A stretch of DNA of 64,000 nt from Pseudanabaena galeata CCNP1313 (GTDB lineage Bacteria; Cyanobacteriota; Cyanobacteriia; Pseudanabaenales; Pseudanabaenaceae). Made by a program: the position numbers and the translations under genes. The number at the start of each line of letters is the position of its first letter. Position 1 is the stretch's first letter. Below are positions 13,362 through 18,131 of the stretch, piece by piece. The notes under the pieces were generated by a model. That model was not told where the DNA came from, searched no databases, and worked only from the letters and a program-made list of their open reading frames with translations. Location: the NCBI RefSeq assembly GCF_029910235.1, contig NZ_CP112874.1:186001-250000 (forward strand), in the 5' to 3' direction.

Positions 13362-14393
13362 ATGCAAATCTCTGAAAATCCTAACGTAAAATCTGATTGG
13401 TGGGCAGGAAATGCCCGTTTTGCCGATCTTTCTGGTCTATTTATCGTAGCCCATGTCGCTCAAGCCGCTTTGATTACCTTTTGGGCTGGCGCGTTTACTT
13501 TGTATGAAATCTCTTGGTATCGAGCCGATTTGCCGATGGGTAGCCAAGGTTTGATTTTACTACCCCATCTTGCTTCCTTGGGTCTTGGTGTTGGAGAGGG
13601 AGGTACTATTATTGATAGTTATTCCTATTTTGTGATTGGCTCCCTGCACCTGATCTCTTCCGCAGTTTTAGCGGCTGGAGCCTTATTTCACCTCACCAAA
13701 ACCCCAGCTAGTCTTAAGGAATTAAAGGGTTTTGCTAAGAATTTCCATTTTGAATGGAGTGACTCGCGCAAATTGGGGATCATCTTGGGACATCATTTGT
13801 TGTTCTTGGGCGCTGGTGCATTATTGCTGGCTGCCAAAGCAATGTACTGGGGTGGGCTTTATGACTCGACTATTCATGCTGTCCGAGTTGTAACTGTACC
13901 AACCCTCGATCCATTAGTGATCTATGGTTATCAGACTCATTTCGCCGATGTCAATAGCCTTGAGGATCTGGTTGGTGGTCATATCTATGTGGGGCTGATG
14001 CTGATTGGTGGTGGAATTTGGCATATTGTCATGCCGCCAATGGCTTGGGCAAAGAGAGTCTTGATTTTTTCTAGTGAAGCTATTCTGTCCTATTCCTTAG
14101 GAGGAATTGCATTGGCTGGTTTTGTTGCCTCTTACTTCTGTGCGGTGAATACACTTGCTTATCCTGTGGAGTTCTATGGCGAAGTTTTGCAAGTGAAACT
14201 GAGTGTGATGCCTTTCTATGCTGACACAGTATCCTTACCTTTGGGAGCGCATACTCCCCGTTGTTGGTTGGCTAATGCCCATTTCATTCTTGCCTTCTTC
14301 TTCTTGCAAGGACATTTGTATCATGCACTGAAGGCGATCGGCTTTGATTTTAATCAAGTGAGTCGGGCTTTGAACATGACGACTGCGGAATAA
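13362..14393 (+). CDS. CP43-like chlorophyll-binding antenna protein (IsiA/Pcb/CBP family)
   Basis: A six-helix thylakoid protein that binds chlorophyll and acts as an accessory antenna or energy quencher. It begins like IsiA and CP43 ([14 protein letters not shown]) and keeps [29 protein letters not shown] and the final [20 protein letters not shown]. At 343 residues it lacks the large lumenal loop of photosystem II CP43 (PsbC, about 460). Stretches such as [32 protein letters not shown] and [17 protein letters not shown] look nearer to CP43 than to classical IsiA. The neighbouring flavodoxin gene isiB argues for iron-stress expression. Confidence 0.92.
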
Positions 14394-14399
14394 CCTTGC

Positions 14400-14432
14400 T
14401 TTCAAAGGCGTGGCAAAGCCATGCCTTTGAAA
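14400..14432 (+). terminator. Hairpin directly after the antenna gene
   Basis: TTTCAAAGGCGTGGC-AAA-GCCATGCCTTTGAAA pairs with one G-U, 7 bp after the antenna stop. No T-run follows. It could partly end transcription or protect the antenna mRNA, separating its level from the downstream genes. Confidence 0.65.
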
Positions 14433-14467
14433 AGAGAAAATATTAGAGAATATTAGAGAACAAAATC

Positions 14468-14557
14468 ATGGCGATGTTTCTTGGGAGTCTGCTCACGATC
14501 GCTTCATTAACTTATCTGGTCAACTTTTGGTTACTGATGACCTTGATCCAGAGGTAA
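14468..14557 (+). CDS. Candidate 29-residue single-helix membrane peptide
   Basis: ATG at 14468, TAA at 14555-14557. It reads MAMFLGSLLTIASLTYLVNF then WLLMTLIQR: nearly all hydrophobic with a positive C-terminal end, like the single-helix subunits of photosystems and cytochrome b6f. It matches none of those I can recall. It lies between the antenna and Crp genes on the same strand. No convincing ribosome binding site is visible, although AGAG stretches lie upstream. Confidence 0.5.
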   Translation: MAMFLGSLLTIASLTYLVNFWLLMTLIQR

Positions 14558-14586: not shown

Positions 14587-15225
14587 ATGAATTCCACATT
14601 TGTTAAATTAGCTGACAATCATTTATCAATTTCGATCACTCCCCCCAAGGTCTTACACCTTCTCAATCACGGACTTAAGATCTACAATTTCAAACGTTAC
14701 GAATACATTCCATTGCGTAATGATGTGTTGTGGCAGATTAAAACAGGAATTGTGCGAACCATGACTTGGGATGAGGAAGGTAACCAAATTGTCTTGGGAC
14801 TGTGGAGCGAAGGCGATATTATTGGTAGCCTCATGTCTACCCTTGAGCCTTACCAGATTCAATGTTTAAGTAATGTCGAAGTAGAATTATTGCCATCGAT
14901 TTTGTGGGAGCAAGCTTCTAGTGCGATTATTGCCCATTGTCACCAAACCCAACATTTACTGAGTATTTCCCATTGCCGCACAGTTGATGTCAAGTTGAAG
15001 AAGTTTTTGATTTGGCTATCGGAGAAGTTTGGTAAACCCTGCGATCTCGGTATTTTGATTGACCTCAAGATCACGCATCAAGACATTGCTGACACAATTG
15101 GCTCGACTAGAGTAACAATGACGAGATCTTTAAATCAACTAAGACTTGATGGATTGATTAGTTGGAAAAACCACTATTTGACATTGCATTCAAACTTTAG
15201 TGATAGGTCATTTTCTGCTTTATAA
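14587..15225 (+). CDS. Crp/Fnr-family transcriptional regulator
   Basis: 212 residues: an N-terminal cyclic-nucleotide-binding-type beta barrel (TGIVRTMTWDEEGNQIVLGL, GDIIGSL) and a C-terminal winged helix-turn-helix (LKITHQDIADTIGSTRVTMT, RSLNQLRLDGLI). The phosphate-binding cassette of true cAMP receptors is not evident, so another effector or none is likely. It is placed between the antenna gene and flavodoxin, so control of this cluster is the natural guess. Confidence 0.88.
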   Translation: MNSTFVKLADNHLSISITPPKVLHLLNHGLKIYNFKRYEYIPLRNDVLWQIKTGIVRTMTWDEEGNQIVLGLWSEGDIIGSLMSTLEPYQIQCLSNVEVELLPSILWEQASSAIIAHCHQTQHLLSISHCRTVDVKLKKFLIWLSEKFGKPCDLGILIDLKITHQDIADTIGSTRVTMTRSLNQLRLDGLISWKNHYLTLHSNFSDRSFSAL

Positions 15226-15314: not shown

Positions 15315-15824
15315 ATGGCTAAGATTGGTTTGTTTTTTGGTACTCAGACTGGTAATACTGAAAGTGCGGCTGAAGAAATACAGAAAATTTTTGGTTCTGG
15401 ATTGGTTGATTTGCATGATGTTGCCAAAGCCGACGCTAGTGATTTGGTAGGCTATGATTGCTTGATTATTGGTTGTCCGACTTGGAATATTGGTGAGTTG
15501 CAATCGGATTGGGAAGGCTTATTTCCTGAACTTGATGATCTTGATTTCTCTGGTAAGAAAGTTGCTTATTTCGGTTGTGGTGATCAGGTTGGCTATGCGG
15601 ATAATTTCTTAGATGCGATCGGTATTCTCGAAGAGAAGATCGCGGAACGTGGCGGTAAGACCGTTGGTTATTGGTCAACGGAAGGCTATGAGTTTGATGA
15701 ATCTAAGGCAGTTCGCAATGGTAAATTTGTCGGGCTGGCTCTAGATGATACCAATCAATCAGATTTGACTGAGCAGAGATTGAAAAAATGGGTAACGCTA
15801 TTAAGGGCTGAGTTCGGTGTCTAA
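15315..15824 (+). CDS. isiB: Flavodoxin
   Basis: A small FMN electron carrier replacing ferredoxin after photosystem I under iron limitation. It starts MAKIGLFFGTQTGNTESAAE, with the FMN phosphate loop at about residues 10-16; the two flavin-flanking loops are CPTWNIGELQSDW and FGCGDQVGYADNF. At 169 residues it is a long-chain flavodoxin. The TAA stop (15822-15824) is also the 3-bp target duplication of the repeat inserted directly behind it. Confidence 0.96.
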   Translation: MAKIGLFFGTQTGNTESAAEEIQKIFGSGLVDLHDVAKADASDLVGYDCLIIGCPTWNIGELQSDWEGLFPELDDLDFSGKKVAYFGCGDQVGYADNFLDAIGILEEKIAERGGKTVGYWSTEGYEFDESKAVRNGKFVGLALDDTNQSDLTEQRLKKWVTLLRAEFGV

Positions 15825-16236: not shown

Positions 16237-17262
16237 ATGGTAGTTCAGAAAGTAAATCAGAAAGTTAAATTTAATTATTTGCTGCGCGATCGCTTCTTGC
16301 CCACGTTAGGTTTGTTGACGATTGGACTGCTATTGACAATGGCAGTTTCCCTATGCAAAGGAGCAGTTCCCCTCAGTTGGAACGAACTCTGGCAAGCGCT
16401 TTGGCATCAAGGCGAATCGATTAATCAAACAATTATTTGGGAATTGCGATTACCGCGTATCATTGCCGCGATGGTGGTCGGTGCGGCTTTGGGAATGTCA
16501 GGTGCTTTACTGCAAGGAATGTTGCGAAATGGGCTTGCCGATCCCTTTGTGTTGGGCATTTCCGCAGGTGCGGGACTCGTAGCGATCGCCATGATTACGC
16601 TCGGTGTAGTCCAGACTTTAGTTCCCATAGGCGCATGGTTTGGCGCGATCGCTACGGCAATTCTCGTTTATACCCTTGGTTATTTGGGCGGAGGACTTTC
16701 CGTTGAGCGCTTGATTTTGGCAGGTGTGGCGATTAGTTCTATGTTTGGCGCAATCCAAACCACTCTGCTCTTACTTGCGGATGATGGCAGAATTCAGTCG
16801 GCGCTAAATTGGCTGATTGGTAGCCTGAATGGGCGTGGCTGGGCTGAGGTAAATAATGTGGGTCCCTATGTGGGTATGGCGCTAATCGCAGGTTGTCTAT
16901 TAGCGCGTCCATTGAATTTGCTGAATCTTGGTGACGACCTCGCATCAGGTTTGGGAACTTCGCTAGTGCGATCGCGTTTAGCGATTGGTGCAGTAGCAAG
17001 TTTACTGGCGGCAAGTGCGGTGAGTATGGCGGGACTAATTGGCTTTGTCGGCTTGGTTGTGCCGCATGGTGTGCGCTTGCTAGTCGGTTCTGATTACCGA
17101 TGGATTTTGCCATGTTCCGCGATCGGTGGTGCTTGGGTGTTGACGCTAGCGGATTTGCTGTCGCGACTCGGCACGGTGGAATTACCTGTGGGCGCAGTGA
17201 CAGCGTTGCTTGGTTCTCCATTATTCATCTGGTTACTCTATCGGCGCGGTCAGAGAGGTTAG
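16237..17262 (+). CDS. FecCD-family ABC transporter permease (iron chelate/heme/B12 type)
   Basis: An inner-membrane permease with about ten helices, 341 residues. Family marks are WELRLPRIIAAMVVGAALGM, SGALLQGMLRNGLADPFVLG and the EAA-like VGLVVPHGVRLLVGSDYRW. It pairs with the ATPase two bases downstream (TAG TA ATG). The substrate is a metal chelate or heme judging by the neighbours; heme-type is the best guess from the receptor in the same direction. The ATG at 16237 follows the inserted repeat by 28 bp, so the native promoter may have been displaced. Confidence 0.92.
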   Translation: MVVQKVNQKVKFNYLLRDRFLPTLGLLTIGLLLTMAVSLCKGAVPLSWNELWQALWHQGESINQTIIWELRLPRIIAAMVVGAALGMSGALLQGMLRNGLADPFVLGISAGAGLVAIAMITLGVVQTLVPIGAWFGAIATAILVYTLGYLGGGLSVERLILAGVAISSMFGAIQTTLLLLADDGRIQSALNWLIGSLNGRGWAEVNNVGPYVGMALIAGCLLARPLNLLNLGDDLASGLGTSLVRSRLAIGAVASLLAASAVSMAGLIGFVGLVVPHGVRLLVGSDYRWILPCSAIGGAWVLTLADLLSRLGTVELPVGAVTALLGSPLFIWLLYRRGQRG

Positions 17263-17264
17263 TA

Positions 17265-18131
17265 ATGGATAATCATGATTCCTATAATCTTGCTGAAGCA
17301 TTGCTAGAGGCTCGAAATCTAGTCGGTGGCTATGGTAAGCAGACAATTTTGCAGGATGTGTCCCTATCTCTCCATAAAGGCGAATGGTTGAGTTTAGTAG
17401 GTGCAAATGGTTCAGGCAAATCAACTTTGTTGAAGCTATGCAGTCGAATTCTGACACCGCAAACGGGAACGGTTTTACTGGATGGCAAAGCAATCCATCA
17501 ACAGCCTGCCAATGTTGTCGCTAGGCAGTTAGCGATTTTGCCACAACAGCAAACGATTCCATCGGGATTGACGGTGCGACAACTAGTCAGCCTTGGACGC
17601 ACACCCCATCAACCTTGGTGGCAATGGGATCTGAATGTCGAGGATCGGCAAATGGTGGAAACAGCGATCGCTCAAACTCAACTCACAGAATTAAGCGATC
17701 GCCCCGTTGAGCAGCTTTCAGGTGGTGAGCGCCAAAGAGCTTTCCTAGCCTTAACCCTAGCGCAAGATCCTCAAGTTCTCTTATTGGATGAACCAACCAC
17801 ATTTTTGGATTTGCATCATCAATTAGAACTATTGGAACTGCTGAAGACGCTCAATCAAGAGCGGCAATTGTCAATCGTTACGGTGCTGCATGACATTAAC
17901 CTAGCGATGCGCTATAGCGATCGCCTAGCGATGTTAAAGCATGGTGTGATCAAAGCGATCGGGCGATCGGCTGATGTGATCACTCCTGAAAATCTGCGTC
18001 AAGTCTTTGATGTGGAAGCAGTGACGCTCATTACGCCTGTGGGTTTGCAGATCTGTTTGCTTTCGCCATCGCATACTTTAGTCAAGAGTCGCGATGTGAA
18101 GCCCTCACCCCCCAGCCCCCTCTCCCATTAA
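17265..18131 (+). CDS. FecE/HmuV-like ABC transporter ATP-binding protein with repeat-derived C-terminus
   Basis: Powers import through the FecCD permease. Walker A is VGANGSGKSTL, the signature is QLSGGERQRAFLAL, Walker B is VLLLDEPTTFLDLHHQ and the switch His lies in VTVLHDINLAMRY. I chose the ATG at 17265, two bases after the permease stop, over a longer in-frame start inside the permease gene. The last ten residues (KPSPPSPLSH) and the stop are encoded by repeat element C, so the original end was replaced. It is the only ATPase for the two transporter halves in the window. Confidence 0.93.
   Translation: MDNHDSYNLAEALLEARNLVGGYGKQTILQDVSLSLHKGEWLSLVGANGSGKSTLLKLCSRILTPQTGTVLLDGKAIHQQPANVVARQLAILPQQQTIPSGLTVRQLVSLGRTPHQPWWQWDLNVEDRQMVETAIAQTQLTELSDRPVEQLSGGERQRAFLALTLAQDPQVLLLDEPTTFLDLHHQLELLELLKTLNQERQLSIVTVLHDINLAMRYSDRLAMLKHGVIKAIGRSADVITPENLRQVFDVEAVTLITPVGLQICLLSPSHTLVKSRDVKPSPPSPLSH

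Follow-up and report, generated by a model that had tools for sequence, protein, structure and literature searches.

Behind the isiA gene of Pseudanabaena galeata CCNP1313 lies a 90 nt open reading frame, designated here ORF29, which raises three questions: whether it is a gene, where it came from, and what its product may do. It was analysed within a window of 64,000 nt (contig NZ_CP112874.1, positions 186,001–250,000); all coordinates below refer to this window.

ORF29 lies between isiA and a Crp-like regulator gene

The gene order at the locus is isiA, ORF29, a Crp-like regulator gene, and isiB, all on the forward strand. The initial annotation had described the upstream gene as an antenna gene, and this identity was confirmed: isiA (13362–14393) encodes an iron-stress chlorophyll-binding protein of 343 aa (TIGR03041, E 6.5e-137), and it contains on the opposite strand (13755–13932) a match to the antisense RNA IsrR (RF01419, 103.7 bits, gathering threshold 52), which further supports the assignment. 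The same match indicates that the IsrR regulator is retained in Pseudanabaena. Just 3′ of isiA is a 15-bp hairpin without a T run (14400–14432, forward strand; fold z-score −6.32), which could act to protect the isiA message or to attenuate it; palindromes of different sequence are visible by eye in two other loci (L002 and L004).

ORF29 itself (14468–14557) starts 74 bases past the isiA stop codon in the same direction and runs from ATG to TAA over 29 codons, with the translation MAMFLGSLLTIASLTYLVNFWLLMTLIQR, exactly as initially annotated. It is directly preceded by a conserved ribosome-site block of the TTAGAGAACAAAATC type (14451–14467), in which column identity is 90% with 0 gap cells across 11 copies; this block is an indirect pointer to translation. 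The Crp-like gene (14587–15225; 212 aa) begins 29 bases downstream of ORF29 and matches PF13545 (E 6.1e-13) and PF00325, while remaining under the NCBIfam cut-offs. It is followed by isiB (15315–15824), which encodes a flavodoxin of 169 aa (PF00258, E 5.5e-32; TIGR01752 above its cut-off). Further downstream, the open reading frames at 16237–18131 resemble by eye an FecCD-type permease and an ABC ATPase, and probably serve iron uptake. The locus resembles the isiAB and isiABCD loci of Synechococcus and Synechocystis (PMC8635728) in that isiA precedes isiB and IsrR is present, but it differs by having ORF29 and the Crp-like gene inserted between the two, neither of which is mentioned in the accessible part of that article.

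ORF29 accompanies the isi cluster and is under purifying selection

Among 26 Pseudanabaena genomes, all nine that carry a full-length isiA also carry an intact ORF29, and the other eight copies are 79–93% identical to that of the window. In two further genomes, G018 and G012, isiA is truncated by a deletion (L035, 1078–1473, and L042, 1179–1487, respectively; in G012 it also contains a stop codon), yet the 29-codon ORF29 is still open, as is the Crp-like gene. In G018, no isiB was found in the part of the 3-kb locus that follows the Crp-like gene. The G012 copy has changes at two residues that are invariant elsewhere (G6 and L9), a weak hint of relaxed selection after the loss of IsiA. At the G010 locus, isiA and isiB are lost, the Crp-like gene is reduced to a scrap, and ORF29 is broken, its start codon gone; around the broken frame, the UBA1465 locus (L097) has an identical reading. 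In the remaining 14 genomes, no isiA match rose above the psbC level, and the ORF29 matches did not surpass E 0.004. The presence of ORF29 thus follows that of the isi cluster. Within the cluster, ORF29 outlasts its neighbours: besides the two loci with truncated isiA, it is intact in L004, L008, and L009, where only a C-terminal remnant of the Crp-like gene is left. These three remnants also indicate that the local regulator was lost repeatedly.

A pattern scan of 84,980 species genomes returned nine loci with ORF29 or its remnant: five from Pseudanabaena sp. (SR411, lw0831, ‘Roaring Creek’, UWO311, and UBA1465), and one each from P. biceps PCC 7429, P. frigida ULC066bin1, Phormidium tenue FACHB-1050, and an uncultured cyanobacterium MAG. 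So far, ORF29 has been seen at the isi locus only.

The alignment of the 11 intact copies separates the frame sharply from its surroundings. Every copy is 90 nt long with zero indels; there are 149 gap cells at positions −60 to −18 from the start codon, 0 at −17 to −1, 0 within the frame, and 99 in the following 60 nt. Conservation is 90% in the 17 nt upstream of the ATG and 88% in ORF29, compared to 50% in the stretch before and 63% in the stretch behind. We then calculated pN/pS for ten copies, excluding that of G012 because isiA is broken there. The ratio is 0.198 in the ORF29 frame, 0.676 in the next frame, and 2.685 in the frame that corresponds to psbC (see below); for codons 2–29 it is 0.208, and none of 1,000 column shuffles was as low (mean 0.84, minimum 0.317). 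Consistently, the variable columns fall at codon positions 1, 2, and 3 in 13, 3, and 17 of the 29 codons, respectively. For comparison, the pN/pS of isiA is 0.074 (nine sequences). Collectively, these results indicate that ORF29 is under purifying selection for its protein sequence, looser than that on IsiA, and ORF29 is very probably a genuine micropeptide gene.

ORF29 is so far known from one genus and matches no known family

The initial annotation proposed conservation of the frame behind orthologous antenna genes as a check, and its absence from relatives as a refutation. Within the genus ORF29 withstands this check, being conserved at all nine intact isiA loci, but the conservation does not extend further: tblastn (E up to 1e-5) found no ORF29 match at any of 60 isiA loci of other genera, which were taken from the matches listed and are not a random sample. 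In 57 of them the sequence continues for over 1,200 bases past isiA (L110, L143, and L152 are shorter). Of nine positive controls, tblastn recovered all nine, and a hydrophobicity filter missed one (L002). Small hydrophobic open reading frames do exist behind isiA elsewhere, and none of them resembles ORF29 by the same tblastn search (E up to 1e-5). Two of the 60 loci, in genomes of another family, contain a Crp-like gene close behind isiA, 38–42% identical (L117, 416–997, and L137, 505–1011, counted from the isiA stop), so the pairing of isiA with a Crp-like gene may predate ORF29.

A profile search of 386 genomes of the phylum, limited to a maximum of 21 first-look candidates in each, gave nothing below E 1e-4 outside the genus and two genus members below it. 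Among the weaker matches (E 1.5e-4 to 0.1), the best, in G049 (L062), overlaps the psbC gene of that genome, and L065, L066, L068, L071, L074, L077, L083, and L085 contain the psbC motif. The 23 pattern matches in viral contigs included 0 relatives of ORF29. Pfam and PDB gave no match at E up to 10; the sole NCBIfam match, to an exchanger, came from one of eight ORF29 members at E 0.52 and is not meaningful. We also found no description of the ORF29 peptide among the articles listed for isiA, small membrane proteins, overprinting and de novo genes, and psbC copies.

The DNA of ORF29 resembles the 5′ part of psbC in another frame

The origin of ORF29 was first indicated by weak matches in many genomes of the genus at the start of psbC, which encodes CP43, in a frame other than that of psbC; this out-of-frame likeness is absent from the initial annotation. 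When ORF29 of the window is compared to the 5′ part of psbC from the same genome, a core of 54 ungapped bases (14477–14530, forward strand) has 38 identities (score 126) and lies in the +1 frame relative to psbC, so that codon position 1 of ORF29 falls on codon position 2 of psbC. A gapped alignment extends from 8 bases upstream of the ATG into the last third of ORF29, whose first nine bases have no ungapped match to psbC. When the alignment is read by eye, the stop codon of ORF29 coincides with that of the psbC +1 frame.

Is this resemblance due to chance? If it were, ORF29 would be a real gene whose source was non-coding DNA or some other sequence. The match is short (54–67 bp, about 70–78% identity), and psbC is absent among the 30 matches listed when the region is searched by blastn against its own genome, both of which would suit such a coincidence. 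To set against this, the background was scored at 923,764 positions on both strands, comprising 400 kb of the same genome and the window. The best background score for the window copy is 85, compared to 126 for psbC, and a fit to the tail expects 0.007 such matches genome-wide. Across copies, the best background is 81–107, whereas psbC scores 126–175 in seven of ten. The own-psbC scores in the ten genomes compared (G011 was left out) are 126, 144, 149, 175, 106, 91, 126, 140, 126, and 71. With the background of the window's genome used for all, the expected genome-wide counts are 0.0072, 8.9e-5, 0.0023, 3.6e-6, 0.006, and 0.011 in six genomes, where the match is thus significant genome-wide, and the match is weak and not significant by itself in the other four, at 0.3 (L007), 2.3 (L008), 27 (L009), and about 660 (L042). 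L008 and L009 form the longest isiA branch, and the isiA next to the L042 copy has decayed; divergence would produce weak matches in these three loci, although they are no evidence when taken alone.

The register is equally consistent. In all ten genomes, the top match within the psbC locus, searched on both strands, sits in a single register. Among 30 psbC loci that were fetched by psbC similarity only, the placing motif is present in 28, and all 28, of which 22 are from outside the genus, show the identical register; since the psbC genes are orthologous, this common register is one observation repeated. Against these 22 loci, the window copy scores 98–178 in 20; the remaining two give 85 and 77, and nothing elsewhere in the 22 loci exceeds 72. 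The single register, the stop at the same place, and the identity of the target, a paralogue of the neighbouring isiA, all argue against coincidence, which we regard as quite improbable.

Given this paralogy, isiA was also considered as the donor and rejected. The isiA gene of the window's genome scores only 55, and 39 isiA sites elsewhere give a median of 52 and a maximum of 92 with the consensus ORF29, compared to a median of 120 for non-genus psbC genes. The maximum, in L115, shares the psbC register, which a paralogue of psbC would be expected to do. The flanks of ORF29 at all eight full-isiA loci have no psbC similarity (scores 52–74), and hence no longer, intermediate psbC remnant was found there; in L035 and L042, an upstream match to psbC is what the isiA remnant itself would produce.

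Another way to read the psbC similarity is that the segment acts as RNA, a sense copy of psbC that titrates a regulator of the psbC message, with the open reading frame incidental. The similarity does lie on the sense strand, as this would demand, but the changes in the ORF29 frame are mostly synonymous, the similarity is lost in L009 and L042, and the fold of the segment is ordinary (z −0.41). An RNA role is therefore extremely unlikely.

Taken together, the DNA similarity makes it probable, in our judgement with good confidence, that ORF29 originated as a copied psbC fragment that was overprinted. In a forebear of the species that carry isiA, a copy of roughly 70–100 bp from the 5′ part of psbC would have come to lie downstream of isiA, and the fragment would then have been translated in the +1 frame, ending where that frame of psbC ends. 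The start codon and ribosome site show no clear derivation from psbC. Comparable are bacterial genes that arose by overprinting, for example nog1, which lies within citC of E. coli (PMC4683798); there, an old coding sequence likewise gives a new protein in another frame. ORF29 differs from nog1 in that its parent was seemingly copied first, so that the two do not overlap, and in being far shorter and conserved across a genus. The articles listed for psbC and overprinting yielded no description of an out-of-frame psbC copy.

The ORF29 product is predicted to be a partner-binding membrane helix

The ORF29 peptide consists of a single hydrophobic helix (19-residue Kyte–Doolittle maximum 1.78) with a basic C-terminus; ten of the 11 copies end in R or K, and L004 ends in KG. 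Ten of the copies vary at positions 3, 4, 10, 14, 18, 22, 25, 28, and 29, to which G012 adds 6 and 9. Those inside the helix (10, 14, 18, 22, and 25) form one stripe, the helix also has a conserved face, and variability is periodic within 90–110 degrees (permutation p 0.0038 for 11 copies and 0.0058 for ten). This pattern fits a helix with one side toward lipid and one toward a partner.

The stripe bears on a further explanation, in which ORF29 encodes a leader peptide and its translation regulates the Crp-like gene that begins 29 bases further on. The spacing between ORF29 and an intact Crp-like gene is indeed short (17–37 bases), and G018 retains both; on the other hand, a leader peptide has no need of such a stripe, the Crp-like gene possesses an AGAGG-like site of its own, and ORF29 is intact in the three loci with only a Crp-like remnant. 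We consider this role very unlikely.

The product could instead be a free, stress-type membrane peptide that acts at the membrane or in transport or signalling and is no subunit of a photosynthetic complex. TisB-like peptides are the natural comparison for this type, and ORF29 is similar to them in length and hydrophobicity; moreover, it sits in a stress-gene cluster and is retained in two genomes despite the truncated isiA. A helix that is conserved on one face and varies along a single stripe points to a protein partner, though, and the restriction to the isi locus seen so far also speaks against a free peptide, leaving this possibility unlikely.

Our best guess is that ORF29 encodes an accessory subunit that serves the thylakoid under iron stress, based on its tie to the isi cluster, its partner-type helix, and the habit of photosystems of carrying such peptides. 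The peptide would be made together with IsiA and flavodoxin under iron shortage and would insert into the thylakoid, probably with its N-terminus out and its C-terminus in, as judged by the positive-inside rule, and its conserved face would pack on a larger membrane protein. It is similar to the small one-helix subunits that cyanobacterial photosynthetic complexes contain, among them PetN, PetL, PsaM, PsaI, and Psb30, in length, in having one hydrophobic helix, and in having photosynthesis genes close by, but differs from them in that it matches no family and occurs in a single genus.

The partner is harder to name. The initial annotation proposed an antenna-associated peptide: the single helix conserved beside isiA agrees with that proposal, which stays plausible, but two genomes keep ORF29 open beside a truncated isiA, so IsiA may not be the partner, and these open frames, together with the lack of ORF29 behind isiA outside the genus, weaken an antenna role. 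IsiA or the IsiA–PSI supercomplex is the likeliest single partner, albeit a tentative choice. That ORF29 is a gene of psbC origin encoding a partner-binding helix, whatever the partner's name, is jointly rather likely; the more specific reading, that it is a single-helix subunit of the IsiA–PSI antenna, derived from part of the CP43 gene that was duplicated to a place behind the paralogous isiA and overprinted in one genus, is, taken whole, doubtful.

If the proposed origin and role are true, ORF29 would represent the birth of a bacterial gene whose parent sequence is still recognisable, with the source gene, the frame change, the inherited stop codon, and the later selection all to be seen in living genomes. 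The response to iron stress, in which cyanobacteria rebuild their photosystems, would also gain one more membrane peptide, and lineage-specific micropeptides, to which family-based annotation is blind, would be worth seeking near other photosynthesis genes.
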